From contig JAHLKF010000011.1 in assembly GCA_025558075.1 (NCBI GenBank), positions 372,001 through 436,000 on the forward strand: 64,000 nucleotides of DNA. The letters run 5' to 3'. Source of the DNA: Gaertneriomyces semiglobifer. Lineage: Eukaryota > Chytridiomycota > Chytridiomycetes > Spizellomycetales > Spizellomycetaceae. This document shows positions 4,481 to 27,824 of this stretch, piece by piece; position 1 is the stretch's first letter; every line of letters starts with the position of its first letter. The notes beneath the pieces were generated by a model. The model was given only the letters and a program-made list of their open reading frames with translations. It was not told where the DNA came from and did no database searches. Both the position numbers and the translations under genes were made by a program.

Positions 4481-4701
4481 TGTCACAGTAGTGGTGAACC
4501 CTAACACTCACCACCACTTGGTTGCCACCACCAAGCCGTTTGGCTGCCACCACCAACCCGGTAGAAGCGGTCACGTGACCTCACAGGACGTCATTGGAGA
4601 GTCATATGGTCGTTCATACATCTTCGCGGCATCTTCTAATACATCGATTGAAGAATCGTTGAAGAAACCGTCATACAGCATCTCTGCATCTTCACGGCAT
4701 C

Positions 4702-4877
4702 CTTTTCAGTCTCCTTTTGTCTCACATTTGGAAAAGCATAGGTAGTATATATGTTTCAACAGTTTCCAATCTTTCCAGATAGGAGAATGAAAAAGCTTGA
4801 CGGGATACTTTGAAAGAAACTTGGATAAGTACTCGAGCGGAAACTGATATGTTTTTTCTCCTTTATTGAAACGTTCT
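4702..4877 (+). repeat. Hairpin module, copy A (left TIR)
   Basis: This is one of five copies of a roughly 165-180-bp unit: a region starting CTTTTCAGTCTCC and ending near AGGAG, then a conserved tail containing TTGACGGGATA, GAGCGGAAACTGATATG and GAAACGTTCT. In this copy the two hairpin arms no longer match in the middle: the left arm resembles that of copy C and the right arm that of copy B. Its function is unknown; candidates are a replication or packaging signal, a promoter or a small structured RNA. Confidence 0.7.
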
Positions 4878-5128
4878 ACCTGGCTACAGCTTCTCGGTTA
4901 AGTGTCTAGTACCAAAAGCTACATAGGCTACAAGTATCGTACAACAGTCATGTAGCCCTTGTAGCCCTTGGGGTCTTCAGGCAAACGCGCTTCCCGTGTA
5001 GCCTCTCGACGACAACTTTGTCACCGTTTCCCAATGTACATGTTGCCCGGGCTTCCTGTCGCGACATTGGCTTCCTCCCTTACTTCCTTTATGAACCATT
5101 ACCAAAAGTTGCCATACGTCCTTGCAGT

Positions 5129-5305
5129 AGCTTTTCAGTCTCCTATCTGGAAAAATTGGAAACTCGTAGATTGTATGTACTACCTACACTTTTCCAATTT
5201 TTCCAGATAGGAGTTCAAAAAGCCTGACGGGATATTTGGATAGGAAACTTGGTTAGATTGCCGAGCGGAAACTGATATGTTTTCTCCACTTTTTGGAAAC
5301 GTTCT
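5129..5305 (+). repeat. Hairpin module, copy B (left TIR) with perfect 23-bp stem
   Basis: The arms 5140-5162 and 5191-5213 are perfect reverse complements separated by a 28-nt loop. The conserved tail with CTGACGGGATA and GAGCGGAAACTGATATG follows. It lies just inside the inner edge of the TIR, about 80 bp from the 3' end of the recombinase gene. Confidence 0.75.
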
Positions 5306-5386
5306 CGCGCGGGATGCCAATGTACAGCAGATCATGTAAAACAAAAGCTCATATTACTTAACGAAAAAACAAACTTAGGACTGAAA

Positions 5387-6403
5387 CTAGACATTGCTAC
5401 GCTCGGTACGATTATACAAGTGTCCCTCTTTGATAGAGTGATTGCGTGCAAAGGACATCATATCCAACTCGCGATAACTGAACTTCTTGTCCGCCTCATA
5501 TGAAGTGATGGTTTCGATAACACGGATCAATCTTGAAGTCAATCCATCTGCAAAGTGCTTACGAAGCAACTGATTGATTCCCTTTTGAAGTTCATCAGCT
5601 GAAAAAGGACGCTTGGTCTTCTTCTGGAACAAGTATCCATGGTCCTTGTGGTCTTTCCGGTAGCGATCAAAGTACGCGTGCATCATCTTTTTCAACGGTT
5701 CATTCGACACTGAAAGGATGATTGGGACACCCACCGTTTTGACAGTGTTGAAGATTAGTACAATCTTACCCATCTCATGTCCTTCAAAAACAATAATGTT
5801 GTCATCCAGACAGTTCCCATCAAATTTCAACTTTGCATATGGACTCAAACGAACATTTGGTTCGTTCAACAGCAGATTCAATATGATAACCAATTGCAGG
5901 TTCAACAACTGTTCTTCGTCCAAGGAAACATTGTTCTGCAGCATCTGGAGCATGTCTTCAGTAAGTGTCTTGACTGTTTCAAACAGTTTCTCAAATGTCT
6001 CAATATCCACTGCCGCATTGTCCAACGCCTCCTTCTCTTTGTTCGAGAACTTTCCCTCCTTGCGATGCTTTGGTGCAAAACTATCCTGGTATGACCTGAT
6101 CTTCATAACATACTGTTGACGTACCTCATCGTCTTTGAATCCAGGAATGTCAGTAGAAAGCAACGTACGAACATAACCTAGATGAGACTTGACGACATTC
6201 TCCATGGTTGAATTTCTACCTTTGCGAGGATCTTGCGTCCGATCAAACAACCGTTTAGCCAAGTCCTGCACATTCACATTGTAAAGATCGTCAAGCAGAC
6301 CCTCATTGAGGATAGCTAAAAGGTACTTGGCGCGCTTCTTGATTTCGACGCTAGTTGCGTTCAAATTGGCTTCGAGAATACCTTTGATACTTTCGCGGTC
6401 CAT
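5387..6403 (-). CDS. Tyrosine recombinase (phage-integrase fold)
   Basis: The predicted site-specific recombinase has 338 aa from the first ATG (6403). The N-terminal half is helical and charged, like a SAM-like DNA-binding domain. The C-terminal half follows the tyrosine recombinase pattern: Arg185 in EPNVRLSPY, a beta-hairpin Lys222 in NTVKTVG, an R-L-I-R box (Arg291-Arg294) in the place of HxxR, His322 in ARNHS and a candidate nucleophile Tyr330 in GHLYNR. The layout (N-I-V...F-N-T-V-K-T...P-L-K-K...GYLFQ) matches eukaryotic-virus and Crypton-type recombinases. The first His of HxxR is replaced by Arg, so activity is uncertain. It is the outermost gene on the left and has no frame lesion. 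The family call rests on motif order only, without a search. Confidence 0.7.
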   Translation of the reverse strand: MDRESIKGILEANLNATSVEIKKRAKYLLAILNEGLLDDLYNVNVQDLAKRLFDRTQDPRKGRNSTMENVVKSHLGYVRTLLSTDIPGFKDDEVRQQYVMKIRSYQDSFAPKHRKEGKFSNKEKEALDNAAVDIETFEKLFETVKTLTEDMLQMLQNNVSLDEEQLLNLQLVIILNLLLNEPNVRLSPYAKLKFDGNCLDDNIIVFEGHEMGKIVLIFNTVKTVGVPIILSVSNEPLKKMMHAYFDRYRKDHKDHGYLFQKKTKRPFSADELQKGINQLLRKHFADGLTSRLIRVIETITSYEADKKFSYRELDMMSFARNHSIKEGHLYNRTERSNV

Positions 6404-6547
6404 TTTGGAGAATGAGATACGAATGGAGGTGGACAACAATCTGAAGGCGAAAGTATATTTGTCTTTATATACAAGCTTTGAAAAAAATATGACGTTTACC
6501 TTTAATCGAATATCCTTTTTCTATCGATCGAACAATGGATAAAAGTG

Positions 6548-9500
6548 CTAAAGTTCTTGCAAAGATCGAATATGGCGAGGATCACAAGGAAAGTATTTGG
6601 TTTTCCATTCGTAGTACTTTCGATTCTTTTCGTTGGGAAAGTCTTTGTACACTAACTCGGTCCCGAACGCTGTATTCAAGACTTTGGCGAACAGATCCAT
6701 CCTGAGTGTTGTCGGCGGACGCGATAAAAAGTCAAAGATGCGTTTGATCTCATGCAGTTGAACACTCCACTTGAAGTCCTTGGTAATCTTGAACTTGTCC
6801 GGATTCATAATATCCACATTATTCTCTTGGAATAGCTTGCACAAGTGTCGAGCTGCAAGTTTCATCTCGTATTGATGTTCTTCAGGAAGATCTTTGTCTT
6901 TGCGTCTGGTGATGCCAATCATATGCAGTTGATCAGCACATGGTTTGAACCTGTCCCAGTACAGCTCGTACAAGCCCTCCTCAATGGATATAAACCGTTC
7001 CCGGAAATTGTACTTGTATAGTTCGAGTATTTGTGTGATAGTTGCATCCTGGTAGAACATGAGTTGTAGAATCTTTTTCTTTTCATCTTCGGTGATGTCT
7101 CGAATGTTTTTCCAGCGGTACATACTCAAGTCGGTATTGCAGAACTCGTTTGCCTTTTCTTCTTCGTCCTCTTCAATGATAGCTTCAATGTCATCCTTTG
7201 CCATGACAATATTGTTCATGAGGAACATCTCACGGACAATGGTCATGTATCCTTTGCATGAAGACACCAACGTTTCTGTCCTCATGTTCTTCCTCAGACG
7301 GGCATATGCAGGGGACAGCTGAGAGAGAGAATCAGCAAGCCCATCATTGTGATAGAAGTCGGCTCCTGTTCCACCACGAGTGGCAAGATAGTAGATCTCG
7401 TTGGTTGTGGTTTTCCTCACACGTCCCACGACTTGAGTAGAGTCCCGAGGTGATAGAGCCGGCGGCTGAAGTACGACAAATACCTTGTCAAAGAGCCTGT
7501 AGTCTTTCTGTTGTTCTGGCGTTGGGTCATAGTTGACTCCCACAGCGAGTGAAGAATTCCCAATCACGACACGTATATCACGATGTCCCCAAGCAGACAA
7601 AACTTCTCTCAATCCTTCTTTTTCATCTTTGCGATGCGCATGGTATCTCAAGACCTGTTTCCCATACTCCCAATCAGGGAACATACGCATGATTGTCGAG
7701 TAGATCCCTTCAACAGACAGGAAGCATTTGCTGTCAGGAGTGGTGGATCCCTTGTTCCCCGTACAAATAAGTAGCTTTTCACCATTCTGCAGGGCTACTT
7801 GGATTTTGTTGAAGAAATCTGGCTCTGACTTGACCCGGATCGCATTACGTTCAGGGACATGGTGTGGTTGAGTACCTATCTTGAAAACCTCCCCGCCACA
7901 GAGATCTTGAGCAAGATCCACACTGGCATTGGTCAACAAAGCGTCCATCCAGATGGTCTGTTTGGTGTTTGTGATGGTCGTCTCCAAGATTTTCCAGTGA
8001 AGGAGACGTCGGTCCTTTGAACCACCTTTGTGACATTTTGCTTCACCTTCAAAACTCCTCAATAGTGTTTCTGATTCATCCATGATGACAAGATCATAAG
8101 GCTTGTTTATCATGTATGCAGACTGGACGGAGCACACAAAGTACTGAGGATTTGATTTCTTCATCAATTCCTTCTTGGCGGATCCATGTGCATCCAAGTA
8201 AAAAATCCAAGGAAGTCCAGTAGTGTCTCTGAGGCGTGTCCTCTGGTCGTTGGTCAAAGTGATACGACATGTCAACCAAAGAATGCAATGGTTGGGGTTC
8301 TTCTCACTGTACCACTTCAGCAACTCGAGAACAGCCTGTGATTTTCCACTACCGGTCGGGAGTTGAAGGAGAATGCATCGTTTATCTTGATTGGAAATCA
8401 GGTCGTCCACACTGAGGAAGCGACGATTGATGTCGAGGTCAAATGTCTTGTTCAATGATTGGAGCATCTGCTTGACCGGATGATGCTTTTGAATGTTCTT
8501 GTAAACCACTGCCAACGATGCCTTCATAAAGTTATCCTTGGGTGGGTACTTGTTGACATCTGCATCCTTCCATATGCGGCTGTACCTGGATTTTCGATCA
8601 GGGCTATCGTCCTTTTGCTTGCACCACTCCCAGAAATCTTCAAAGGTGAGACCGACGTGCTTACACCAGGCGAGCACTCGGCGATTGTATGTATGGTACA
8701 ACTGAAACTTGTCGTATCGAGGAGGATTGGGCATGGCAGTGAGTTGTTTATCCGGTGTGGACTCATGGTAAGAGAAGCCGTCTGGACACTCTAATTCCAT
8801 ACGCGGGAGCTCGATAATGTAATCATCCACTTTCTTCTTCGGTTTTGAATTGGACGCGTTCGCCGGGTCTTTCCTGGTGTACTTGCGCTTCTTGGCAGGA
8901 GCAGGTAGATCCAAGGTCGTAACATCGATAGCATCTTTTGGGATCTTGTGCATGACGGTGTGATCCAAAACTTTTTTCGAACCCGATATATAAGTCTGAA
9001 TCCGTCCATCTCCTTTGCTTTGGTTGATCGCTTTTAACTGTCCGTTGTTATTGTACACGGCAGGATCAAAGCCCAGAGCCCTGTGTTCTGGGACGCAGCA
9101 AAACTGTTTGACCGCGAGTAGATCTTCATTGCGTTTCGCAAAATAATTTTCCAAGATTTTATGATAGGAATGCTTTGAGTCGGTGATAGATCCTGATATA
9201 TTCAAACGGCAACCCGGAAAGTACTTGTGAAGCAAGGTAGTGATTTCTTGGAGTACAACCGTCTTGGTGGGCGTTTGGTCGGGTTGGGGTTTAAAGTCGA
9301 TATCAAAAGCAACCTTTTGAGGACGGTCTTCATGCATGATCTCGAATAAGTTGACATCCTGCTTCAACAGAGCCGACAGCTGCTTGGGCGTAACGGCGGT
9401 ATAAGCGCTGTACGCTTTGGTACCTTGTTGATCCCCGGTTTTCCGTTCATAATCGATAGAGGATGCAACAACGACCTTGTCACTGGGACAACTCCCGAGG

Positions 9501-9601
9501 AGATGCTGGAGGATCCCATTGCCCTTGCTGCGATTGGTGAAGAACGTGATACCGTGCTTATGGATGGGACGGTACTTGTTATTGATAGAAGTCATTGCCA
9601 T
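6548..9601 (-). CDS. Archaeo-eukaryotic primase fused to SF2 (origin-binding-type) helicase
   Basis: This 1017-aa replication protein starts with an AEP primase domain: metal-binding Asp100/Asp102 in AFDIDF and S-Y-H at 145-147. A Lys-rich linker at about 235-258 follows. The second half is an SF2 helicase with Walker A PTGSGKS at 415-421, the DEAD-like box DESE at 508-511, and motif VI QVVGRVRK near residue 700. This AEP plus herpesvirus-UL9-like helicase architecture is known from large DNA viruses and related mobile elements. It probably primes synthesis and opens the origin in the host nucleus or factory. The start is the only good ATG at the frame's upstream end. The frame is intact over 3 kb, in contrast to the integrase and capsid genes. 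Hairpin module C lies in the 450-bp gap upstream. Confidence 0.88.
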   Translation of the reverse strand: MAMTSINNKYRPIHKHGITFFTNRSKGNGILQHLLGSCPSDKVVVASSIDYERKTGDQQGTKAYSAYTAVTPKQLSALLKQDVNLFEIMHEDRPQKVAFDIDFKPQPDQTPTKTVVLQEITTLLHKYFPGCRLNISGSITDSKHSYHKILENYFAKRNEDLLAVKQFCCVPEHRALGFDPAVYNNNGQLKAINQSKGDGRIQTYISGSKKVLDHTVMHKIPKDAIDVTTLDLPAPAKKRKYTRKDPANASNSKPKKKVDDYIIELPRMELECPDGFSYHESTPDKQLTAMPNPPRYDKFQLYHTYNRRVLAWCKHVGLTFEDFWEWCKQKDDSPDRKSRYSRIWKDADVNKYPPKDNFMKASLAVVYKNIQKHHPVKQMLQSLNKTFDLDINRRFLSVDDLISNQDKRCILLQLPTGSGKSQAVLELLKWYSEKNPNHCILWLTCRITLTNDQRTRLRDTTGLPWIFYLDAHGSAKKELMKKSNPQYFVCSVQSAYMINKPYDLVIMDESETLLRSFEGEAKCHKGGSKDRRLLHWKILETTITNTKQTIWMDALLTNASVDLAQDLCGGEVFKIGTQPHHVPERNAIRVKSEPDFFNKIQVALQNGEKLLICTGNKGSTTPDSKCFLSVEGIYSTIMRMFPDWEYGKQVLRYHAHRKDEKEGLREVLSAWGHRDIRVVIGNSSLAVGVNYDPTPEQQKDYRLFDKVFVVLQPPALSPRDSTQVVGRVRKTTTNEIYYLATRGGTGADFYHNDGLADSLSQLSPAYARLRKNMRTETLVSSCKGYMTIVREMFLMNNIVMAKDDIEAIIEEDEEEKANEFCNTDLSMYRWKNIRDITEDEKKKILQLMFYQDATITQILELYKYNFRERFISIEEGLYELYWDRFKPCADQLHMIGITRRKDKDLPEEHQYEMKLAARHLCKLFQENNVDIMNPDKFKITKDFKWSVQLHEIKRIFDFLSRPPTTLRMDLFAKVLNTAFGTELVYKDFPNEKNRKYYEWKTKYFPCDPRHIRSLQEL

Positions 9602-10052
9602 TTCTAGTAATCGATAAAATTAGAACTGGGGGGTTGTGATTTTTCGTTTTACTTAATGGCAACTAAAATCCTATTGATAACCGAACGCAGTGTGTAGGGT
9701 TTATGTACTGTTTGAAAGCTTTATTGATGATTACATCATGTATACATATATTACATAATCGTTGACGTAGTAGCTTTTCAGTCTCCTTTCTGTTCACTTT
9801 TGGAAAATGTAGATAAGATATAATGTATCAAAGTTTCCAAAAGTGAAGAAATAGGAGATCAAAAAGCTTGACGGGAATACTTTGATAGATATCCGAGCGG
9901 AAACTGATATGTTTCTCCACTTTTTGGAAACGTTCTATCCCATGAATGGATGGATCCGCACAGAGAGTGTAGGGGTCGACGCGTTCCAGCAATATGTTCT
10001 TCAGCTTTTATTGATGACATTTGTATTACAACACAACTGTATTCCTCCTATA
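9602..10052. other. Non-coding gap between replication gene and SprT gene
   Basis: About 450 bp without a supported gene. It holds hairpin module C (9772-9936) and, at 9602-9700, the probable promoter region of the minus-strand primase-helicase, which is AT-rich. Confidence 0.5.
9772..9936 (+). repeat. Hairpin module, copy C (internal)
   Basis: This is the only copy outside the TIRs. It keeps the outer CTTTTCAGTCTCC...AGGAG frame and the conserved tail (TTGACGGGA, GAGCGGAAACTGATATG, GGAAACGTTCT). The stem is built from a different sequence (TTCACTTTTGGAAA paired with TTTCCAAAAGTGAA) than copy B. Retention of pairing despite sequence change suggests that the fold matters. Confidence 0.7.
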
Positions 10053-10721
10053 TCATTTCTTAACTATTTTGAGAGGAGTTTTGCAATGATCACACACTTT
10101 GTTCTCGAGACATGCAGGTTTCCTGTGACGTTCTAAATTGGCTCTTCCACATTTACAAATTATTTTCCACTTTTTCTCGACGAAGCTACCATAGGATCCA
10201 CACCTCTCTCCGGTACAGCCAATCTCGATTGCCTTGGCTTTCCACACAGCATCATGGTGGTGTTTTGGTGTAAGAACATGAGCAATTTCATGAAGAATAG
10301 TGTTACGAATATTGTCCAATGTTCCAGTTGGTGAATTGACCCATTCTCTAGACAATGATATAACTTTTGATCCGAATTTCGTTACGCCATAGCGCCTTAC
10401 AGCTCGGTCGAAACCAAAAGTCCACCCAACAATTTTGTGTTTAGTAAAAAGAGTGTGAGCAAGCTTCGTGGCAGCCTTTTCCATTTTGGTGACTGGCTTG
10501 ATGACTACCCGTGTTTTCTTGGTTACCTTTACGGTTTTTGTAGCGCGTTTTTTGACGGTTTTGCGTTTTGTCTGCCTTTTTACGGGTGTCTTGGCGTTCT
10601 TTATCTTGAACTTTCGAATATAGACATAATTAGAGAAGTGACCTCGTACAGGACCTTTATATATTGCGTTAGGTGCATGTTTGATCGTTCCTTTTCCTCT
10701 ATCGATAGTTAGTTCTTTCAT
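10053..10721 (-). CDS. SprT-like zinc metalloprotease
   Basis: 222 aa from the ATG at 10721. A very basic, Lys/Thr/Val-rich N-terminal region (about 40-80) precedes a SprT-like domain with the catalytic motif HEIAH at 144-148, a further His cluster at 154-156 as likely third ligand, and W160. A C-terminal zinc-ribbon-like segment with Cys189, Cys191, Cys204, Cys210 and Cys213 completes the family layout. Eukaryotic SprT proteins (Spartan) cleave DNA-protein crosslinks; a viral version could clear replication blocks or process a DNA-bound protein, which is inference. It diverges from the integrase gene with only about 50 bp between the starts, an AT-rich stretch that must hold both promoters. 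Confidence 0.85.
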   Translation of the reverse strand: MKELTIDRGKGTIKHAPNAIYKGPVRGHFSNYVYIRKFKIKNAKTPVKRQTKRKTVKKRATKTVKVTKKTRVVIKPVTKMEKAATKLAHTLFTKHKIVGWTFGFDRAVRRYGVTKFGSKVISLSREWVNSPTGTLDNIRNTILHEIAHVLTPKHHHDAVWKAKAIEIGCTGERCGSYGSFVEKKWKIICKCGRANLERHRKPACLENKVCDHCKTPLKIVKK

Positions 10722-10773
10722 CGCACAAAACAAGAAGTCGATCCATAATATAATCACTCACTTATCAATAAAG
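10722..10773. promoter_or_regulatory. Divergent promoter gap between SprT and integrase genes
   Basis: The gap of 52 bp separates two opposed start codons and contains CATAATATAATC, a TATA-like stretch. Sharing this small space implies a compact bidirectional promoter. No experimental support is available. Confidence 0.35.
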
Positions 10774-12108
10774 ATGAGTTTCCGCGCACTCACACACCGT
10801 GAACGGAATCAAGTTGAGGATGTCTATTCTACGATGAACGTGGGAAGGGACAATCTATGGTTGGCGGTCCGTCGCAAGTATCCTGAATTCAAAGGAAGTC
10901 AGCGAGCTGTCCTTTATGATTTCCTCTATTCCAAGGATGAATGGCAAAATCACCGCAAGCCTGATACACCTACTGTCGTTGCACCCTTAAACATTCAGAA
11001 ACCAGGTTACCTCCAAATTGACATGGTGTCGATGCGAACATACACAGATGCAGGGTATGTCGCCTTTGTCCATATGATAGACGGCTTCACCAAGAAATCA
11101 TGGGCAAGACCTTTGAGGAACGAAAGGGAAGTGGACATGACGGATGCAGTGGAGGACATGGTAAAACAGTGTCAACGTGAAGGTAAGGAGATTAGAATCG
11201 TACAGACGGACCAAGGCAGTCACTTTCAACGTATCTTTCGAGCAATGCTACAGAGTCACGGCATCAAGCATATCTACTCGCAACCAGGGAGACCCGAAGG
11301 AAACGCCTTCATAGAAAAACGCGGGGGCGATATTAAGCGACAATTATACGCACTCATGAATGCCAACAATGACAGGAAATGGGTATCCCGACTTCCGACG
11401 GTAATTAACAATATGAACGTGATGCGTTCCTTTGCGAACTGGACACACTCCTAGTGACCTTGAATCTGCTGATCCTGACATGGTCGCTGAGGCACAAGAA
11501 AAAATAACAAAAAATATAGCTAAGCGATACCATGTGAACTCAAGAACAAAGCCGTTGCATATTGGACAAAGGGTGCACATTAAACGAGACTTGAAGAGCA
11601 GTGTGAAGAAATATGGGAAAGCGGGATACTGGTCGAAAGATATTTTCACGGTGGTTGAAAGGATCAATTCTACTTATGCCAACATTTTGGCATCTTACCG
11701 TTTAGAAGATGGTAATGGAAACGTATTGAAAGGAAGGTACCCGAAATCTTCCCTACTAGCGATTCCACCTATGTTGAAGGAAGATGATCTTGATGAAAGT
11801 GAGGAAGAAGAAGAAAATGAAGTCGAAGAGGATGACGTACCGAGTGTCGATGATCCACTCGAGGATAATGAATTAATAAGAGAACAGAATGAGGCTGCTG
11901 AACCACGGCGGTCACTTCGTCTCAACACAGACCAAGAGGATCACTACGAAGTCGAGGCGATTGTGGGACGAAGACAATATCGTGGACAGACTCATACAAG
12001 GTCCGCTGGGTTGGATATGGGGAAGACGATGATTCATGGGTCAATGAAGAAGATGTAAATGCACAAAATTTGATTGATGAATACAATGAAATAACAAATA
12101 ACACATAA
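10774..12108 (+). pseudogene. Retroviral-type (rve) integrase with C-terminal chromodomain, frameshifted
   Basis: The N terminus has a helical region (HRERNQVEDVY). The catalytic core carries D83 (QIDMVSM), D146 (QTDQG) and E181 (FIEK), with 34 residues between the last two, the DDE layout of rve integrases in Polintons and LTR elements. The first frame stops at 11452-11454; the coding sense continues in another frame (GHTPSDL onward) through a basic region and a Glu/Asp-rich linker. Near 11988 a second shift is needed to stay in a chromodomain-like segment (YKVRWVGY, then DSW) that ends at 12106-12108. Chromodomains on integrases target chromatin. The TG...CA ends and 5-bp duplication are exactly what this enzyme would make, so it probably inserted the element before decaying. 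Indel sequencing errors are an alternative explanation. Confidence 0.85.
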
Positions 12109-12122
12109 CACATAACTAATGC

Positions 12123-14939: not shown

Positions 14940-15425
14940 AAGGAAACTCTCCCACAACACCCAGAGGTTTTTGACTACGGAAACTTGCACTAAAACGCCC
15001 AGAGGTTTTTGACTACAGAACATTCCACCAAAACGCCCAGAGGTTTTTGACTACAGAACATTCCACCAAAACGCCCAGTGATTTTTGCATAAAGAAAACT
15101 ACACAAAACACCCAGTGATTTTAGGACTTAGTGATTTTTGAAGATTCTCACTGGGTGTTTCAATAACCAAACACTGAGCATTTTTCACTGGGCGTTTCAA
15201 CAGCAAAACACTGAGCATTTTTCACTGGGTGTTTTCAATAACCAGACACTGAGCATTTTTCACTGGGCGTTTCAACAGCAAAACACTGGGAATTTTTCAC
15301 TGGGCGTTTTCGGCGAAGGAACCATTCCAAAAATTCCACTGGGCGTTTCAACAGCAAAACACTGGGAACTTTTCACTGGGCGTTTTCGGCGAAGGAACCA
15401 TTCCAAAAATTCCACTGGGCGTTTT
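14940..15425. repeat. Inverted iteron array, candidate replication origin
   Basis: About thirteen copies of a motif close to AAAACGCCCAGTG (variants with T for C, or AGAGG at the end) fill this gene-free interval. The left five, up to about 15115, are in one orientation. The right eight, from about 15149 to 15425 (CACTGGGCGTTTT), are in the opposite orientation. The array forms an imperfect palindrome centred near 15130. Secondary repeats such as GGCGAAGGAACCATTCC occur twice on the right. Such iterons between a replicative helicase gene and the ATPase gene resemble viral or plasmid origins and would suit the UL9-like helicase. The last copy overlaps the 3' end of the ATPase gene. Confidence 0.75.
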
Positions 15426-16147
15426 CATTCATCAAAATATTCCTTCAAGCCTTCCGAGTCACAGTACCTGTACATGTCGGATGCATTGTTCTTTGTGGTA
15501 TCAATGTAACAAAAGGAAAAGCGTTCTTTTGTGCATTCAATCAGGTATTCTAGTACTTCTTTCGATGTTTTGAAAGCGGAGGCTAATGTTTCTGAAAGGA
15601 CAATCATGTCCTGATTCGAATTTCGGAATATTACCCATTCAGTGGTACAATTCTTATGTTTACTAGTCAACTGTCCCTTGACACTCTGTATGGCTACGAT
15701 GGTCGAGACGCCGAAATGTCTTGATTTCGTATAGAGCCTTCCAAGCTCCGCTGCCAAGTCCTTGCTCCTTGCACCATCTGCAGCATCGTCTATAAAAAGT
15801 AACAAGGTGGATCCATTCTCTTTGAAGAGCATCTTTTGTTCTTCAATGAAGGCTCTGATGCTATTATTGGACACGTCGTCGATGAAGAAAATGTTCTTGT
15901 GCCTTGTACTTTTTGCAAGTTCCCTCACCGACACATCATACTCAACCGTGTCACTCATGATTATAACGCGATCGTGGACTTTGGCATACACTTGATCAAT
16001 GAGCCCACATATGAGCGCACTCTTACCGGATTTTCGTGGCGCACACAATGTAGTACATAATGGAATATCCGCTAGTTCTTCAGGAATACGGGCGTCTCTA
16101 TGCTTCCCCTTCTTTGGGAAGATGGCTTTCGGTTTGAAATGGGACAT
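15425..16147 (-). CDS. A32-like FtsK/HerA-family DNA-packaging ATPase
   Basis: This 240-aa protein is of normal length for the packaging ATPase of Polintons, virophages and PLVs. Walker A is APRKSGKS at 36-43, Walker B is LLLFIDD at about 115-121, and a conserved segment GVSTIVAIQSVKGQ follows, where this family usually has a sensor Gln. It should pump genome DNA into the procapsid. The frame is intact. It shares a 65-bp divergent gap with the penton-like gene, the boundary between replication and structural halves. Confidence 0.88.
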   Translation of the reverse strand: MSHFKPKAIFPKKGKHRDARIPEELADIPLCTTLCAPRKSGKSALICGLIDQVYAKVHDRVIIMSDTVEYDVSVRELAKSTRHKNIFFIDDVSNNSIRAFIEEQKMLFKENGSTLLLFIDDAADGARSKDLAAELGRLYTKSRHFGVSTIVAIQSVKGQLTSKHKNCTTEWVIFRNSNQDMIVLSETLASAFKTSKEVLEYLIECTKERFSFCYIDTTKNNASDMYRYCDSEGLKEYFDE

Positions 16148-16220
16148 TTCAAAGAATTAAAACTTTGTCTACTATACTATATAGAAGAGTTCTTTTTGAT
16201 AAACCTCGTCCGTGAAAGCC
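16148..16220. promoter_or_regulatory. Divergent promoter between ATPase and penton-like genes
   Basis: Seventy bases between two opposed starts contain an AT-rich core with CTATACTATATAG, TATA-like in both directions. It probably serves both the ATPase and the first structural gene. Confidence 0.4.
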
Positions 16221-16937
16221 ATGCTGAACCAACACATTTACTGTAGTCTGAAGGCAAGATCCTTCAGTGTTCCGCCTAAACGTTGTGAAGCCTTCAAGGT
16301 TTTGTCGGTTTCGTTCACGCAAGACTGGGACCTTATCAATGAAGAGAACAATACGTTGCTCTTCAAGGAGAACGGGAATGATACCCCGCTAGCTGCTCGG
16401 ATCAATGCAGGTAATTATACCGTGGCTGACTTCCCTCAAGAATTGGCACGTGCGATGACCGCTGCTGGGACCCAATCCTATACGGTTACCTATTCCAATA
16501 CCACTAGGAAGCTCACCATTGCCGCTGCTTCTGAATTCTCCGTCCTGCCTTCCACGGACGGTTCCACTGCCTATGCTCTTGTCGGTTCTTCACAATATAA
16601 TGCAACCGACCCGGCGACTTCGATCACCATGCAGAATCCGGTAAACCTAAGTGCCGCATACCCACTGATCTTGACTTCGAACATTCCTGTCAAAGGCATT
16701 CATTTCCTCAACGATTTCAACGAAGGCGCCGATACAGCATTGCTTGCAGTGGTGCCAGATGCTTTTGGCGATGTCGTGACATGGACGAACCCGGACCCGT
16801 CGTGGTTTGAAGTTGACGACACAATCAGCCGTGTTGAATTCCATCTCATCGACAGCATGACCGGCAGAGAGGTCATGCTCCGGTCCCCTCTCACGGTGAC
16901 TTATGCGTTTACCGATGATTCCGATGATCTTTACTAA
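16221..16937 (+). CDS. Penton/minor capsid-like protein
   Basis: About 238 aa from the first ATG at 16221; the open frame extends nine bases further upstream only by a GTG codon. The sequence is beta-rich with few charged clusters. The central motif GNYTVADFPQELARAM followed by YTVTYSNTTRKLTI resembles the strand-helix-strand module seen in penton/minor capsid proteins of Polintons and PLVs, in which a single jelly roll caps the vertices. It is the first gene of the plus-strand structural cluster, between ATPase and capsid genes, where penton genes usually sit. The assignment rests on pattern and position. Confidence 0.6.
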   Translation: MLNQHIYCSLKARSFSVPPKRCEAFKVLSVSFTQDWDLINEENNTLLFKENGNDTPLAARINAGNYTVADFPQELARAMTAAGTQSYTVTYSNTTRKLTIAAASEFSVLPSTDGSTAYALVGSSQYNATDPATSITMQNPVNLSAAYPLILTSNIPVKGIHFLNDFNEGADTALLAVVPDAFGDVVTWTNPDPSWFEVDDTISRVEFHLIDSMTGREVMLRSPLTVTYAFTDDSDDLY

Positions 16938-17011: not shown

Positions 17012-17548
17012 ATGCAAAATGAACAAGATCCTGCCACCGAGAACGTTCCCGAGGAGCAAGTTCCCGAAGAACAGTCGCTGGAAAATGACTCTATAAACGA
17101 GCCTGATAATGAACCGGTTCAAGAGCCAGTACCTGAAGCTGCTACCCCTAAACCCGTCAAGAAGAAGCAGCCGATGAGTGAGAAGCAACGTGAGTCACTC
17201 AGAAAGGCGAACGCGGCAAGAGGTAAGAAGCTGAAGGAAAGGCATGCACGGCAGCGTCAGTTGGATGCTGAAGAAGAAAGGAAGAAGAAACTGGCAGAAG
17301 CGAAAAAAATTTTAGAGGAAGAGAAAGAAAGGAAACGACGTGAAAGAGAACAGAAGAAAGCGAAGAAAGCACCGGTGAAGAAGAAAGGGCGTAAGAGAAT
17401 GAGCAGCGTAGTTCCAACCAAAGCACAAGCAAAAACCAGACCAACAGTAACGGTGCGTATGGACGACAGTTCGGATGAATCTAGTATTGAGGATAAAGGT
17501 TACTACGATACAGGATATTCCGATCCGTACGGTGGTATTTTCGGCTAA
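17012..17548 (+). CDS. Lys/Glu-rich charged protein in the virion module
   Basis: This 178-aa protein is of unknown function. Residues 1-50 are acidic and Pro-rich; about 55-145 is a long Lys/Arg/Glu-rich helical stretch likely to form a coiled coil or bind DNA; the C terminus is acidic and Ser-rich, ending in a Tyr/Gly-rich tail. It lies between the penton-like and capsid genes and may be a core or scaffold component, which is inference from location and charge. The stop codon is followed at once by a T-tract, as in the gene before it. Confidence 0.6.
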   Translation: MQNEQDPATENVPEEQVPEEQSLENDSINEPDNEPVQEPVPEAATPKPVKKKQPMSEKQRESLRKANAARGKKLKERHARQRQLDAEEERKKKLAEAKKILEEEKERKRREREQKKAKKAPVKKKGRKRMSSVVPTKAQAKTRPTVTVRMDDSSDESSIEDKGYYDTGYSDPYGGIFG

Positions 17549-17634
17549 GTAATTTTTTTTCTTGCATACGTGTAAACAACGTCTTCCTGTTTAAATTTTC
17601 TCCCGCGAAACAACTACAGATCAGAAAAAACATC

Positions 17635-18884
17635 ATGAGTGAAGTCGCTGTTCCACGCAATTGGCTTGCAACGTCAAATACATTTGCCCGCAGTTATACG
17701 GACCCTCGTGGTGAAGGAGTGACGATTTTTTCACCCGTGGGTCAGGCAGAGTACACTACCAAGGCTCGGACCCTGACGCCCATTCGCATCAAATGTGATT
17801 CTAACCAAGCCTCCTTCATCTTGCAAAAGTTAGTTTTGAGCTGGGATCTTTCCATTTACAAGACGGATGGTACACCATTCCCGGCTGGAGCGGGTGTGAA
17901 GAACACACAGCTTGGTGCCAATGCCATCATCCAAACTCTGGTGATAAAGGCGGGTGGTGAGACCGTGGTGAACATTCCTAATTACAACGCTTATCTAGCC
18001 GATGTTTACAAGAACCTCCCTACATCAACCAAGGCGCTTCTCACAAAGATGTCTGGTTACAATCGTACAGACCTGTTTAGTTCTACTTCGACCGTCACTG
18101 TGAACCATCACCCATTGGTGGGCTTCTTCCATCCTACAAACGAAGGGTTCTTCCATGTATGGGCTTTAGCCGATCAAGCAATCGAGATTCAGATTACTTT
18201 GGCTGATCCTGCACAGTTCTTCGTGGGCGCAAGTGGACAACCGGCAGAAGTGCGAATCTCAAACATCCGCTGTCTCGTACCGTTTATTACTCCCCCCCTA
18301 GTTTTGTGGTGAATACTACTCGGGCGATCGCGGAAGGGAAGAATATTCTCTATGATTATGTACGCTCCACGCAGGTGGAGAATGCATCAAGTGGAAGCAA
18401 CTTGAACACGTATATGTTACACATGAGTGGAGTACGATCTCTGCAAGCAATTTCGATGGTCTTCATTGACGGAAGTGCTGTGCAAGACCCTACTAAGGAT
18501 AACAACTTATCCTATTCGGACCAGGGTCTGAGGGAGTGGTGGATTCAGTTGGGACAACTGACGATTCCCTCGGGTATAACGGGCTTCACGAATTCTGAAA
18601 CAGATATGCAAACATTGCTCGTTACCCATTTATCGAATAACAACTTTGACCAAATCGGTAGCATGGACCTGAACTACAACTACAATACCCAATTGTTCAA
18701 CTTTGGGTATTCTTTCCAGGACAAGTCAGAAGGTTCCACGGCTGCCCTTTCAATGACAGGAAGTGACGGTATTATGCGAATTACGACTAAGCACGAAGGA
18801 TCTGTACCTGTGACTGTTCGTTTACTCTCGACATTGCATGAGAATGTCACCCTTGCCATCGGATCAACTGTTACTGTCGTGTAG
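17635..18884 (+). CDS. Major capsid protein, double jelly-roll type, with a frameshift at a C7 run
   Basis: Two abutting frames together make a protein of about 416 aa. The first, 17635-18312, begins MSEVAVPRNWLATSN; the second carries on from the homopolymer at 18292-18298 (seven C) and ends at 18884. The first half has strands such as FILQKLVLSWDL and IIQTLVIKAGGE and loop residues typical of jelly roll 1. The second has SGVRSLQAISMVF and LREWWIQLGQLTIPSG, typical of jelly roll 2 in PLV/NCLDV-like capsid proteins. Size and position support the call. Frame matching requires one more or two fewer C residues. Causes could be a mutation, a homopolymer sequencing error or slippage. Convincing coding on both sides argues against two separate genes. 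Confidence 0.8.
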
Positions 18885-18986
18885 AGACAGGTAACGTTCC
18901 AGGATTCAATGAAAAACATATTTCAAGAAAAAAGCTTTTGATGTACTGAAGATTCCTTTACTGCTAGTTAATGATGTTGCGATTTT

Positions 18987-19295
18987 TTATGTCGGCATTG
19001 GCTGTCCTTTTCTTACTTTGTCAATAAATTCGTTTCCTTTTGTATGCAAGGTGTCCAGTCTCTTGATACCTGTATCTGCCTTGTTGGTCATGTTCTGAAT
19101 TCCCGTTCGTACCTTGTCATTGAATAGTTCAGGCGTACTTTGGACAGCACGGTTGATATCCTGGATTCTCTTATGGGTGGTCCCGGCATGGCGAACGGCT
19201 GTGGATGCAAATGTTCTCGCTTTATTGAAGAGACTTGGCGCATTCGACCATAATGTTTTAACTTTCGACCCGAAACCTTTCAAAAAAGATGGCAT
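18987..19295 (-). CDS. Small basic protein with N-terminal amphipathic helix
   Basis: 102 aa, no recognised family. It begins MPSFLKGFGSKVKTLWSN, an amphipathic helix with Phe/Leu/Trp on one face and Lys on the other, followed by helical basic sequence. It is the only minus-strand gene within the structural cluster. Size, charge and position recall small membrane-active or core proteins of adenovirus-like virions, but this is inference. Confidence 0.5.
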   Translation of the reverse strand: MPSFLKGFGSKVKTLWSNAPSLFNKARTFASTAVRHAGTTHKRIQDINRAVQSTPELFNDKVRTGIQNMTNKADTGIKRLDTLHTKGNEFIDKVRKGQPMPT

Positions 19296-19393
19296 GACTG
19301 AAGGACTTGTTCCTTTTAATAGAAGACACCGAGTTTTTTTTTCGTACCTATCAAGTAACTTTTGATTAATAGTGAAGAGAAATAATCATCATC

Positions 19394-21049: not shown

Positions 21050-21121
21050 ATTTCCTTTGGATTGGTGTGAAAAAAGCTTTACCATATAGTAATAAATAAC
21101 CTGGTTCGACTGGTTCTCGAA

Positions 21122-22567: not shown

Positions 22568-25500
22568 ACAAAGAGTGATCTCTTTGAGAGTGATATCAAC
22601 ACCAACCGGTCCAACATCACTGCATTGGACAATGCGAAGAATCAGATTCAAGCTCATTTCCTTGGCAGCGGACGTGACAGGGTTAACTGGTGTCGTAGAT
22701 ACGGTCAATACGGTGGCGACTGGAGTGCAAGTCGCGCAGGCTGTTATGAAAGGCGATCTAACAAGTGTCCAAGGCATCTTGACTTCAGTTGCTGGAGAAG
22801 TGACAGGTTTATCGAGCACCGTTGCGGCAATACAAGCCATGCCCGTGGTACGCGGCGTAATAGGCATCGGTGTCCTTGCGGCACAAGATCCGGTCACCGG
22901 CGTGGTAACGATTACTGCGAGCAGTCCTCTGATGGCGAAAAGCAAAGGCACTGCTCCTGTAGATCCAATTCTAAAGTCCGATGATTCTATATTAAAGGAC
23001 AATGGTGGAGGAACCGACATCGGGGAGACGGCTCCTCCTGTCGATCCTCCAATATTGCCACCCAATCCACCTCCACCACCTCCTGGGGGTGATACGTTGA
23101 GGTCTACGGGACGAACAGACGGTAATAATGGACCTTGCCTTGACCCCATTCCACCTATATGGAAAGGTAAAGATCATACCAATCAGGAGTCGTGGTTCAG
23201 AGAAGGGTGGGGGGTGGTATGGAGTCGATTGCCTACAATTGAAGTTGATGGTGTCCCAAGAACAGTTCTCGAATACGATGAAAATAATTTGCCTATTGTC
23301 CCTCACGGGCACATAGATATCATTCACCGGCGTACAGATGAAGACGACTTTTCCAGTGTCCTCTTGACACACGACAGGCACCTGCAATCCGGATATCTAG
23401 GCGTTTACCATGAAAGCATGTTGCAAGTGCCTAACCTTGCCATGCTCTACGAGACTTGGGATTCATTCATGCGTCCGTATGTGGAATCGTGCAACTATCT
23501 AAATGTTGTCGGAAATGGATTGACCAAAACAAATAATACATTATCCCTAAGTTTTGATCATACATCCTTTGCGAAAACAAGTGACCTTCAAAGTCTCACA
23601 ACAAAGTCCTATGTTGATGGATTGTCGTATCTCACCGCGGGTACTGGTATCACGAAAACAGGGAGTACGTTATCAGTGAACAGCTCAGGAATCACCAGTG
23701 TAGGGACATTGACTGGTTTGACCTCTTCAGGTGTAGTCGCCATTTCCAATGCCACGGCGGCTATTAACACCACAACGGGTGCATTGCGTGTTACAGGTGG
23801 AGCGGGAATTGGTGGGAACATCTTCGCTGGAGGAACCGTCACTGCTGCTACCCCGACTGCTGCAGGACACCTAACAACAAAGGGGTATGTTGACGCATTG
23901 TCTTATCTTTCCGTCGGAGCCGGTTTGGTAAAGACAGGAAACACTATTAGTTTAGGATCAGATCTCAGTGCCTTCGAGGTGAAAAGTAATCTCAAGGTTC
24001 TTGCTTACAAGGACAAGGTCGATTATGCAACTGATGTAATTAATGCTCCAGCGTCCGTTACTTACGGAAGTGGTCTGTTGTTTAGTAATAACACGGTGTC
24101 GTTGAACCCAGCAGTCAGCGTTGATTCGGTTACGACCACTGGAAACATTTCGTTTGCAGGGTCCTTCAATGGAACAATGAATGTTAACGGTTCGTATCTG
24201 CACTCTCTTGTCAACTCATCAACAGGTTCCAATTCGAGAACAACTCTTCAAATTAGAGCCGGAGGTGGCACCGGTCTCTATATTAATGTCAACGCGCAGG
24301 CACGCACTGCCTTTGGTGGTGGAAACACAGCGACCCTGATGACCTACAACGGTGCTCTCAGGGTTCTCAGTCAAAGGGAAAAGGGTATCGTTATAGATGA
24401 ACATGGCTCTATAGATGTCTCTGAAAGGCTTTCAGTTGGAACAACTTCTGATGTGGTTGCATTCCCTCCGCTAAGCATGACGTCAAATTCCACTATCATC
24501 TCAAACCAAGCATATGGGAATGGAACTTATGTTGCGAGTACAAGTTCTATCTTCTCATCCACGTATCAACCATATGCGGTTTTTGCTGCCGGGGGAGGAT
24601 GGTATTCAGAAGCAACATCAGGTTACGATGTCACCACCGGTCTGTATGCAGGCTCACAAACAACCATTGTGAATTCGACAAACATTGCTGGAGAATGGGT
24701 TCAGATTCAGATGCCAGTTGGCATTTTCTTAACATCGTTCGATATATCTGGAAGTTCTACCTATATAAGAAATGTGAGGGATTTCGCCCTAGTCGGTTCG
24801 AACGATGGATCCACCTTCATTCACGTTCTTTCATCGACTATTTCATCTTGGATTAATGGTCAAATGCAAACAGTCAATGTACAGACACCAACGACAACAA
24901 AGCCATTCAAGATATACAGGTTGATTATACGATCTGTTAGCGGACTTAATTCAGCGTATTGCTATGTCGGTCGTTTGGTTTTCAATGGCACACCTGTTTC
25001 GATGGACATCCGAGGCACCATTTCCGCAAATCAGGTAGTGACAGAGAACTTGGTATGTTCCGGTGGTGTCCAGATGAATGGACTCACTTTGCAAGATGAT
25101 GTTCTTTCAATTGCAACGTTTCCAGACATTCCTATGACAGGCGCTCTAACAGGACAATATACTACTAGTTCATCAAGTGTATATTCGGGAACGTGGACGG
25201 CTTGGAAAATTTACAATCCATATGTTTCGGACAACAACAACACTTGGTTTTCTGCTAACGATACATATTCAACGAATGGCTCGTATATTGGGACAGCGTC
25301 CACAACAGTGGATGGATCGGCAGTCAGTGGCGAATGGGTTCAGTTGGGCATGCAAACTTCAATTGCTTTGACTTCCGTTTACATTGCTAGTCCTACTGCT
25401 GCAAGCAGTCAATACTTTGATATTAAAGATTTTGTTCTTGCAGCTAGTAATGATAATTCAACTTGGAAACAGGTGACTTCTGGAACATTCAATTGGAGTA

Positions 25501-26306
25501 GTTCTACTACGAATGGCTTGTTGCGTGAACTAAATATCGTGATAACTACTAACCCACCTGCTTATCAATCGTACCGATTGATTGCAAAATCCATTATTGG
25601 GGATTCAACAGGTGCAAAGTACGCCCAGATATACGCCTTGAAATTTAAGGGTGGACCCTTGAAGAAGGTTTTGAGTGTGGACAACCAAAAAGTAAGGAAC
25701 CTAGCGTTCAAAGATACGATCGACTGGAATACAAACGATATTATTAACAAACCTTCTACATTCGGCGCTACTCCTATCGGTGTTTTTCAATACACTGGAG
25801 TCAATTGGTTGACAGCAAGCCGAACCGATGGATATTTAAGTTTTGACTACCTACCGAACATTTCGACCAATGGAATCACATGTACAACCACAGAAACCTC
25901 CTATGGTTATCGGATTTCATTTTTGACACTGCCATCCGTCGGTGTATACTCAGTAGAAATTGTTCTCTCTTGGATGTATCCATTAAATACTCAAGTGAAT
26001 GCATACGAATGGTTATGTCAAGCCCGTAATGTGATTAGGAATTCTGAAGCAGAATACATGCCAGAAGGAACAGTGATGAGCAAAAGTAACATAATCACGT
26101 ATCCAGAATCTGCCACACAGTATGCATCAGGAAGATTTCAAACCTTAAGATTCAATATGTGTGCCCACATCCAATCTTTAACCAATTGGATGAATACATT
26201 GTCCTTTATCATTTGGCATGTTCCCACGACGGTAGAACATAGAACGGATGCTTTCAAGATTAACGATATTGGTATGTCACGATTAATTGTAACAAGAGTT
26301 GGATAG
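22568..26306 (+). CDS. Fibre protein, C-terminal part: shaft, two discoidin-like domains, C1q-like head
   Basis: An open frame covers 22359-26306, but convincing coding sense starts near 22660 (VTGLTGVVDTVNT). In order: a helical segment; a Pro-rich hinge (PPILPPNPPPPPPGG, about 23040-23085); a shaft with SYVDGLSYL and GALRVTGGAGIGGN repeats; two related beta domains (about 24500-25010 and 25160-25650), each with GEWVQ and a DF-L-SND core typical of F5/8C discoidin domains; and a C-terminal beta-sandwich resembling C1q/TNF heads (about 25780-26300). This is the architecture of a receptor-binding spike or fibre. Its own N terminus belongs to the preceding open frame, so the present 3' part probably lacks a proper start codon. 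Confidence 0.7.
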
Positions 26307-26416
26307 GATGGACACTTCATTTTCCGATTCTTTTCTCGATCAAAAAAGGATTCTTCACTTTCTGGAAAGGGAAAAGGATCCGAATGAGAAAGCTTAATAA
26401 CATTGAAGTGGAAGAA

Positions 26417-26890
26417 TCATTTTGCTTTACGTGGTTTCCTTTTATAATACATTCCTAAGGACCATGCCCAATCATCAGGTTCGGCGTCACAAGAGAGTGT
26501 GAGAATAGGACCTTCTCTTCTGTTCAAGTCTGCGATATTCATGGTGTTATGTAAAAACTCCTCTCCAATACCATTCACATGAATGTCGTTTTCGTACACG
26601 ATTAAGACCCGCCGTTTTCGAAAATGTTTTTGACTAATGAATGAGTGTCGTATGATGCTTTCATGGTATCCACTATGATGGAAAATTTCCCATTGGTGAT
26701 GCTCTCCCACACTGTAATGAAGCTCCGTGTCCGTCCCGGGTGGGTTGGAACGGATGCGTTGCGAGAAAAAGTACCTCAATGGGAATTTGAGGTTTGCCTT
26801 CACAACTTGCCGTCGTTTCTGAAAGTCTTCATGATACATGAGACGACGTCTTTCATCCAAAATCATGTGAAGGATTTCCAGTGGAAACAT
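26417..26890 (-). CDS. Unknown 157-aa protein at the right end of the element
   Basis: A minus-strand frame from the ATG at 26890 encodes a basic protein rich in Arg, His and aromatic residues, with no transmembrane segment and a Lys-rich tail (YYKRKPRKAK). I do not recognise it. It converges with the fibre gene and starts about 50 bp inside the right TIR, mirroring the recombinase gene at the other end. It is probably an accessory gene. Confidence 0.5.
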   Translation of the reverse strand: MFPLEILHMILDERRRLMYHEDFQKRRQVVKANLKFPLRYFFSQRIRSNPPGTDTELHYSVGEHHQWEIFHHSGYHESIIRHSFISQKHFRKRRVLIVYENDIHVNGIGEEFLHNTMNIADLNRREGPILTLSCDAEPDDWAWSLGMYYKRKPRKAK

Positions 26891-26947
26891 CTTTTACATG
26901 AGATCGGTGAAAAAACCAGAGATAAGAAAAACTTGGACGCACCCGCG

Positions 26948-27126
26948 CGAGAACATTTCCAAAAAGTGGAGAAAACATATCAGTTTCCGCTCGGCAATCT
27001 AACCAAGTTTCCTATCCAAATATCCCGTCAGGCTTTTTGAACTCCTATCTGGAAAAATTGGAAAAGTGTAGGTAGTACATACAATCTACGAGTTTCCAAT
27101 TTTTCCAGATAGGAGACTGAAAAGCT
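26948..27126 (-). repeat. Hairpin module, copy B' (right TIR)
   Basis: Mirror of the left-TIR copy at 5129-5305, keeping the perfect 23-bp stem (GGAAAAATTGG core) and the conserved tail in opposite orientation. Confidence 0.75.
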
Positions 27127-27377
27127 ACTGCAAGGACGTATGGCAACTTTTGGTAATGGTTCATAAAGGAAGTAAGGGAGGAAGCCAATGTCGCGACAGG
27201 AAGCCCGGGCAACATGTACATTGGGGAACGGTGACAAAGTTGTCGTCGAGAGGCTACACGGGAAGCGCGTTTGCCTGAAGACCCCAAGGGCTACAAGGGC
27301 TACATGACTGTTGTACGATACTTGTAGCCTATGTAGCTTTTGGTACTAGACACTTAACCGAGAAGCTGTAGCCAGGT

Positions 27378-27553
27378 AGAACGTTTCAATAAAGGAGAAA
27401 AAACATATCAGTTTCCGCTCGAGTACTTATCCAAGTTTCTTTCAAAGTGTCCCGTCAAGCTTTTTCATTCTCCTATCTGGAAAGATTGGAAACTGTTGAA
27501 ACATATATACTACCTATGCTTTTCCAAATGTGAGACAAAAGGAGACTGAAAAG
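27378..27553 (-). repeat. Hairpin module, copy A' (right TIR)
   Basis: Mirror of 4702-4877 with a few substitutions (for example GGGACACTTT for GGGATACTTT). It shows the same mismatched central stem. Confidence 0.7.
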
Positions 27554-27767
27554 GATGCCGTGAAGATGCAGAGATGCTGTATGACAGTTTCTTCAACGAT
27601 TCTTCAATCGATGTATTAGAAGATGCCGTGAAGATGTATGAACGACCATATGACTCTCCAATGACGTCCTGTGAGGTCACGTGACCGCTTCTACCGGGTT
27701 GGTGGTGGCAGCCAAACGGCTTGGTAGTGGCAACCAAGTGGTGGTGAGTGTTAGAGTTCACCACTAC

Positions 27768-27824
27768 TGTCACAGTGCACCACAATCTGGTGGTCAGACC
27801 ACCAGATTGTAGTGCACTGTGACA
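27768..27824. repeat. 57-bp terminal palindrome at the right end
   Basis: The terminal 57 bases fold on themselves: arms of 27 bp with one mismatch and a 3-nt loop, both ends being TGTCACAGTGCAC and its complement. At the left end only the outer eight bases (TGTCACAG) remain, directly followed by TAGTGG. The 50-bp difference is bounded by ACAG repeats, consistent with slippage deletion. Palindromic ends suggest that the linear genome could have been hairpin-terminated or self-primed. Confidence 0.85.

Follow-up and report, generated by a model that had tools for sequence, protein, structure and literature searches.

How does a Polinton-like virus (PLV) copy the ends of a linear genome if it has no DNA polymerase B (PolB)? 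The question is raised by positions 4481-27824 of a 64,000-nt stretch of DNA from the soil chytrid Gaertneriomyces semiglobifer (the window; C11:372001-436000), which are an integrated, slightly decayed PLV. The element is 23,344 bp long, has a coding share of 84.6% and terminal inverted repeats (TIRs) of 833 nt, and lies within the 14-40 kb range used for TIR-bounded PLVs. The host assembly (20.86 Mb, 66 contigs) was searched, and the element proteins were compared with Pfam, PHROG and NCBIfam profiles, the Pfam scan covering 17 open reading frames (ORFs) of the element at E 1. What is unusual is the replication genes and the ends, as exchangeable modules, and not the lineage. The account that we favour, with moderate confidence, is that of an integrated PLV of a Spizellomycetales capsid group, built of exchangeable modules and with a palindromic terminus, in which a primase fused to a UL9-like helicase would fire the origins and hairpin ends would replace protein priming.

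The element was inserted with a 5-bp duplication, and its two inverted repeats differ by 8 mismatches:

4476..4480: target-site duplication ACCGT, left copy
4481..5313, plus strand: left TIR, recombinase side, without the 57-nt palindrome of the right end
26942..27774, minus strand: right TIR, with two iterons inside (27032-27125, 27460-27553)
27768..27824: 57-nt terminal palindrome TGTCACAGTGCA...TGCACTGTGACA, at the right end only
27825..27829: target-site duplication ACCGT, right copy

When the host flanks are joined in silico, one frame on one strand stays open through the junction, which suggests, without proving it, that a host gene was the insertion target. A weak DUF3990 match (window 3260-3940, E 2.4e-4, under the cut-off) lies directly left of the insertion. 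Elsewhere in the genome, the duplications outside palindrome pairs are CCGTG, AACGG and CTCGT (5 bp) and ACGG (4 bp). CG occurs within five host-side bases of the element end at 12 of the 13 insertion sites read, the exception being the right flank of element C31b; the 12 include C6:654037 and C24:282135, and the host side of three ends of the 56-nt palindrome type was deduced from their common flank. These CG-containing sites span families whose rve integrases are 30-36% identical to that of the window.

No PolB is hidden in the element. PolB (PF03175) has 14 matches in the genome, none on the window's contig and none inside the six palindrome pairs described below. Eight PolB frames of the same genome, searched against the element, gave nothing better than E 0.94, and the positive control, PolB locus L042, was recovered. 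A ninth query, the superfamily 1 (SF1) helicase protein of element C31a, reached E 0.054 over 56 residues in the window's SprT gene, which is taken as chance. The Pfam scans, the contig count and the PolB-frame searches together rule out a hidden PolB, which the preliminary description of this locus had named among its refuting findings; its statement of no recognisable PolB is borne out. Replication would instead depend on the following genes and candidate sites:

6548..9601, minus strand: archaeo-eukaryotic primase (AEP, motifs by reading) fused to a UL9-like superfamily 2 (SF2) helicase, 1017 aa
12123..14906, minus strand: superfamily 3 (SF3, D5-like) helicase, 927 aa, with a zinc-finger-like N-terminus by reading (D5_N 1.9e-10)
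4702..4795: iteron 1, imperfect palindrome (z -2.9 vs shuffles; energy not unusual for the window)
5130..5223: iteron 2, a palindrome and candidate unit of an origin (z -10.4; energy below 718 of 718 host windows)
9772..9868: iteron 3, a palindrome ahead of the AEP-SF2 gene (z -7.5; energy undercut by 1 of 718 host windows)
14941..15421: candidate second origin ahead of the SF3 gene, made up of two iteron arrays in opposite sense (three CGCCCAG followed by six CTGGGCG)

The SF2 part of the fusion protein is closest to the herpesvirus origin-binding protein UL9. It matches Pfam Herpes_ori_bp (5e-07), and the herpesvirus origin-binding protein is its best match by profile (E 1.2e-14 to 3.5e-14), by Foldseek (3.6e-13, against 9.1e-09 for the next other helicase) and by fold comparison (Z 20.6 over 382 residues at 4.7 Å, against 17.2 for the next other). 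Given that general SF2 helicases rank next, the SF2 fold in itself is common. Motifs rather than a profile identify the N-terminal half as a probable AEP: in alignment A2, by reading, FD-[IV]-[DE] is found in 7 of 7 rows (DxD in 5 of 7), as are SYH and GFD. The preliminary description had listed AEP-SF2 and SF3 replication proteins, and both hold up by profile, the AEP part from motifs only. Tandem repeats of 66 nt lie inside the SF3 gene (window 14075-14404).

Herpesvirus origins are palindromic, and palindromes are the candidate sites of origin binding by the UL9-like protein here. Roughly palindromic iterons, about 94 nt long and each followed by a conserved core, occur twice per TIR and once upstream of the AEP-SF2 gene. 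The TIR iterons are kept in both repeats of all four elements that share this repeat (the window element, C38:38781-62205, C31a and C31b). The gene-upstream iteron is present in three of the four, at the same position in C38 and C31b, and was not found in the piece read of C31a, whose AEP-SF2 gene is truncated. Folding energy lies under that of shuffles for all nine iteron types (z -2.9 to -11.2), and the ungapped palindrome score is 21 for the iteron at 5130 and 25 for the terminal palindrome. On C21 and C6, two elements whose AEP-SF2 has diverged far (36% identity over residues 67-372, 30-31% beyond; the C6 gene has stops) carry other palindromic iterons, with 24-25-nt arms, between the end and that gene. 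The arrays upstream of the SF3 gene hold 6 of the 6 CTGGGCG and 3 of the 4 CGCCCAG on the plus strand of the element; they recur in C38, which has the same SF3 (84%), and are absent from the pieces read of C31b, which has another SF3, and of C24, where there is no SF3: two elements against two. We regard the palindromic iterons in the TIRs and beside the AEP-UL9 gene as candidate replication origins.

The 28-nt arm of the terminal palindrome has 12 occurrences in the genome, with 0 or 1 mismatches under a limit of 3. Each is at an end of the window's family, and together they cover 6 of 8 ends. A generalised end pattern, TGTCACAGTN{24,54}ACTGTGACA, with the reversed pattern as control, located TGTCACAGT...ACTGTGACA ends at 43 places in the genome (control, 0). 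These palindromes form 18 types by length and interior, and the interior is at least 90% self-complementary in 34 of the 43. The multi-copy types are those of 52 nt (11 copies), 49 nt (6), 57 nt (6) and 56 nt (4), together with two types of two copies each. Six pairs, 23.0-24.3 kb apart, bound elements on C6, C21 (two), C31, C35 and C38. The C21 and C6 elements with a diverged AEP-SF2 are 96% alike over one kilobase beside that gene, and their end palindromes (66 and 56 nt) show only 78% alignment identity; the palindromic structure rather than its letters seems to be maintained, by copying or by selection. TIR identity is 97.7-99.5% within one element, and the window element, C38 and the C31 pair differ from one another by 12-15%. 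Such near-identical repeats within an element would fit end-to-end copying. Four palindrome-ended families have a primase of their own (AEP-SF2 in A and E, Pfam Prim-Pol in B and D), and the family with the 49-nt palindrome shows an SF3 match as the only one seen among replication genes. Between its two ends, C6 has the palindrome's central base reversed, and C21 and C38 have it the same; a reversal of one base proves no flip-flop.

Single palindromes with an outer TGTCACAGT and no element were seen at C1:1471506, C2:866463, C7:379753, C8:287431, C9:159709, C9:331768, C22:85467, C31:85672, C33:112420 and C40:72523, and are possibly solo ends or small non-autonomous elements. C6:638591-639128 holds a repeat with 80% likeness to the outer 321 bases of the window element; it begins 190 bases to the right of a match to the end pattern that has an interior only 38% self-complementary.

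The element carries an rve integrase with certainty, and probably a tyrosine recombinase:

5387..6439, minus strand: probable tyrosine recombinase, 350 aa (motif reading, weak fold match)
10681..12058, plus strand: rve integrase, in two frames (10681-11454, 11432-12058; Pfam 1.9e-16)

The preliminary description had counted two types of integrase. The rve stands on its profile match, and the recombinase on motif reading and a weak, non-significant fold match: R197, K234, R303/R306, H334 and Y342, read by eye, follow the residue order of tyrosine recombinases, and the best fold match in PDB is XerA at E 0.32 (the third is an integrase, E 1.1). If the recombinase reading is right, an rve beside a recombinase-like gene would be an unusual pairing. 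Duplications of 5 bp are consistent with insertion by rve, leaving the recombinase available for a different role.

Put together, the genome would be linear with hairpin-capable ends. Assisted by the SF3 helicase, the AEP-UL9 protein would open palindromic origins in the TIRs and beside its own gene and lay primers that a host polymerase extends. Hairpin ends, we infer, would stand in for the protein priming of PolB, the recombinase may resolve joined copies, and the rve-chromodomain integrase would insert the product at CG-containing sites. A broader proposal, which we offer tentatively and with less confidence, is that several PLV families gave up protein priming for hairpin telomeres, with free reassortment of capsid, replication and end modules inside one fungal genome and, in the window's family, origin firing by a herpes/ASFV-like (African swine fever virus) AEP-UL9 protein and a protelomerase-like recombinase. 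Under hairpin telomeres, rewriting of one arm from the other in every round would keep a distinct palindrome in each family, behind the shared integrase end sequence TGTCACAGT.

The capsid side of the element is known in kind. Its genes, with the remaining ones, are as follows:

10053..10757, minus strand: SprT-like zinc metalloprotease (Pfam 1.1e-06)
15425..16147, minus strand: packaging ATPase (PHROG terminase large subunit, 2.3e-07)
16212..16937, plus strand: penton (minor capsid) protein, from its position and homologues in sister elements (38% L041, 34% L054)
17012..17548, plus strand: lysine-rich conserved protein of the capsid module
17635..18884, plus strand: major capsid protein (MCP), in two frames (17635-18312, 18306-18884), from homologues
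18987..19295, minus strand: conserved protein, 102 aa
19394..21049, plus strand: conserved capsid-module protein, 551 aa
21122..26306, plus strand: fibre-like protein split over two frames (21122-22567, 22359-26306), containing F5/8 type C domains
26417..26890, minus strand: 157-aa protein adjoining the right repeat, kept in C31a (92%) and C24 (90%)

The set by which PLVs are recognised (MCP, penton, ATPase) is thus present, the MCP by homologues, one of them a protein deposited as 'hexon' (P0007), the ATPase by its PHROG profile and the penton by synteny only. Pfam gave no match above the cut-off for the ATPase and none for the penton, and sequence searches of PDB found no match to the MCP and no significant one to the penton. 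No Ulp1/adenain-type cysteine protease, the type of Polintons and virophages, was matched by Pfam among the 17 ORFs; a SprT-like metalloprotease is present. The MCP, rve and fibre genes are each split over two frames in the window copy, which the preliminary description had overlooked. In C38, the MCP (416 aa) and the rve (443 aa, with a chromodomain) are whole; the fibre is also in two frames in C24, with the break at a different place.

Twelve proteins match the C38 MCP. The closest is from Gaertneriomyces sp. JEL0708 (97%; order Spizellomycetales), followed by proteins of Spizellomyces (59-61%) and Powellomyces (52-57%, the MELD virus hexon among them) and by two unnamed proteins at 60% and 64%. 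An MCP tree was built from 21 rows, with one fragment of this genome dropped, P0010 left out and the broken MCP of the window represented by C38. Named chytrid rows are intermixed in it with those of this genome, and the window element, through C38, falls among three S. punctatus proteins and Powellomyces. Only a second MCP of this genome stands far off, so how the set relates to non-fungal PLVs cannot be read from this tree. A PLV group of S. punctatus has been described by Bellas and Sommaruga 2021 (PMC7805220), and a later survey excluded fungi (Bellas et al. 2023, PMC10120064; both papers, like those cited below, are drawn on in excerpt). Given that the named relatives are all from Spizellomyces, Powellomyces and Gaertneriomyces and that the S. 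punctatus group is published, the database matches and the tree speak against a new capsid lineage, which is rejected. The 'distinct fungal lineage' of the preliminary description is not supported, and its claims of a PLV with an unusual gene set in a zoosporic fungus, with defined ends (833-nt TIRs, ACCGT duplication), a capsid-ATPase-penton module, two helicase proteins and no PolB stand. Its reading that the element relies on host polymerase may hold, but the AEP part could also serve as a polymerase, or other elements of this genome could supply PolB. IMG/VR scans with the MCP, AEP-SF2 and recombinase found no relatives, a search of phage records returned nothing relevant and an Rfam scan gave 0 matches.

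The same genome contains many related elements, among which modules have been exchanged. There are at least 30 ATPase places (the window element, 6 at 90-92% identity, 6 at 56-58% and 17 at 23-31%) and at least 40 places with the N-terminal part of the MCP, fragments included, both counts being lower bounds. The window element, C38, C31a and C31b have in common the ends, the recombinase (96-98%) and the AEP-SF2 (92-96%). C31a retains window-type ends, the 157-aa gene and a related fibre (62% and 43%) around a foreign centre: ATPase 27%, penton 34%, another rve (Pfam 1e-11), a 451-aa protein in the place of the MCP with no similarity to it and a 1067-aa SF1 helicase with an HNH domain (L071:2-3202). 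Its AEP-SF2 keeps the helicase part, and no match to the first 228 residues was found. C31b has the capsid genes of the window (ATPase 91%, with one stop; MCP 93%) but another SF3. C24 resembles the window element on the capsid side, with up to 98% identity in the 551-aa and fibre proteins and MCP pieces at 79-88%; nucleotide identity rises from 74-79% to 98% near window position 18800. Its other side has genes for a C5 methylase and for a protein that combines Prim-Pol with DUF5906, together with another recombinase-like gene, which is also found in C38:11669, C49 and C45 (one stop). These comparisons show two exchangeable modules, one made up of the capsid genes and the other of the ends, the recombinase and the UL9-like gene.

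A Copia-like retrotransposon frame, by reading, lies near these class B replication genes of C24 (L039:1540-4440). No class B repeats were found in C45, whose right-hand piece belongs to a neighbouring element. The family with the 52-nt palindrome (C35:91630-115205; C2, C19, C30, C34, C39, C47, C59) has two diverged MCP genes (49-51% and 22% to that of the window element), an rve and a recombinase-like gene. Contigs C19, C30 and C34 (L063-L065) end in a common viral sequence, some hundreds of bases past the recombinase-like gene, with no TTAGGG repeats in the last 482-484 bases. Two groupings were rejected: a class joining PolB with two MCPs, as the palindromes place PolB outside and the delimited C35 element holds 0 of the 14 PolB matches, and the placing of the 36% AEP-SF2 relatives in the class with a 58% ATPase, as a different palindrome pair (C21:232949-255938) encloses the one on C21.

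Several observations weigh against hairpin ends and AEP-UL9 firing. The left ends of the window element and C31b have no palindrome, 9 of the 43 palindromes are less than 90% self-complementary, 12 of the 18 types are single and mostly assigned to no element, and the end pattern has no match in IMG/VR. C31a and C31b, which lie next to each other and have a flank in common, agree in their repeats at 97.6-98.9%, like the repeats of one element. C31a and C35 show no duplication, and their two flanks are inverted copies of each other. The iteron at 4702 is equalled in low energy by 125 of 718 host windows; iterons 4702 and 9772 each have an ungapped score of 5, and 90 host windows reach 8; two-sided pairing changes occur in 5 of 15 predicted iteron pairs. 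The AEP part of the window protein matches no Pfam model, the AlphaFold model of the whole protein is middling (predicted local distance difference test, pLDDT, 62.8), and the fold-search list, which contains no AEP structures and covers only residues ~384-804, barely probed that part. The recombinase has no profile match in Pfam, PHROGs or NCBIfam and a poor model (pLDDT 44.8), its best fold match in BFVD has E 0.12, a profile comparison of the two recombinase-like families was not significant (Probab 0.15, E 0.4) and a PDB profile search with both gave no useful match. Finally, the N-terminal half of the SF1 helicase of the palindrome-ended C31a reads as PolB-palm-like, as in Tlr1-type helicases, with no Pfam PolB match.

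Some of these points would suit other explanations. The inverted flanks at C31:95887-120214 and C35:91630-115205 could come from inverted-repeat recombination or from an assembly misjoin. The locus might be an ordinary dead PLV whose palindromes are integrase sites with no replication role and whose mosaics arose by gene conversion and misassembly; TIR misjoins at C31a and C35 would agree with this. The broken MCP, rve and fibre genes are what such a relic would show, as is the patchy identity of C24 to the window (74% to 100%), which conversion leaves. An integrase site, however, does not need self-pairing interiors that differ by family, the same arrangement occurs in elements with a far diverged AEP-SF2, and the class B recombinase-like gene has an open frame at each of three separate loci; we judge this explanation unlikely.

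The supply of polymerase could also be different. Elements without PolB might borrow it in trans from PolB-bearing ones, as satellites do, with palindromes that merely mark integrase ends: the genome has its 14 PolB matches, and on C2, C19, C30, C34, C39, C47 and C59 PolB lies 6.8-7.0 kb outside the palindrome-bearing end. A protein-primed PolB would need end sequences of its own, whereas the ends here are palindromes with family-specific interiors, and families A, B, D and E carry primases of their own; we give such borrowing a low probability. Similarly improbable, in our view, is a PrimPol role for the AEP part, which would then be the replicative polymerase and make a host polymerase unnecessary. 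The motifs in the A2 rows and the Prim-Pol matches of other families would agree with it, but the AEP part of the window protein, besides having no Pfam match, has no known activity, and C31a retains the helicase part with no match to the first 228 residues. We continue to prefer AEP-UL9 origin firing with hairpin ends.

PLVs, Polintons, adenoviruses, pox-like and ASFV-like viruses are thought to share a common ancestry and differ in how DNA copying starts and finishes. If the favoured account is true, a switch from protein-primed to hairpin ends could be viewed directly in soil chytrids, within a single 21-Mb genome that combines related capsids with several replication modules and has palindromic ends on families in which PolB was not found. 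Capsid and replication trees of PLVs, moreover, do not have to match. The new points are a UL9-like initiator with palindromic iterons in a PLV, family-specific palindromic ends on elements with no PolB match and module exchange within one genome. Literature searches found no title on PLVs with palindromic or hairpin ends, which is not proof of absence.

Among known systems, those closest to the element include the S. punctatus PLV group, which is integrated in a chytrid of the same order and has TIRs, with 5-7 bp duplications at three integrated elements (PMC7805220); the S. punctatus capsid SPPG_02195 is 61% identical. That group has a chitinase in 52% of its members (PMC7805220), whereas none was matched among the 17 ORFs scanned here, and the excerpts of that paper do not mention terminal palindromes. 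Powellomyces chytrid fungus MELD virus 5 (P0007), compared by its hexon alone, has a 56% identical capsid. Polintons/Mavericks share the rve integrase (broken in the window copy), TIRs, capsid module and integration; the window element differs from them in having no PolB, a probable extra recombinase, palindromic ends and a duplication of 5 bp, against the typical 6 bp (PMC12220804). Cryptophyte PLVs are likewise integrated many per genome, use rve or recombinase integrases and in some cases have two adjacent MCPs (PMC12220804), unlike the window element in its stand-alone rve with a chromodomain beside a recombinase-like gene. An N-terminal primase with a C-terminal UL9-like helicase is also found in mimivirus R8, ASFV F1055L, Yaraviridae and Ostreid herpesvirus 1, and the excerpts of the paper name no PLV among the carriers (PMC11253617); the fusion described here differs in belonging to a PLV with a separate SF3 helicase. 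The UL9 of mammalian herpesviruses has no primase domain (PMC11253617), unlike the window protein, with which it shares the SF2 helicase domain by profile and fold, next to palindromic candidate origins in this element.

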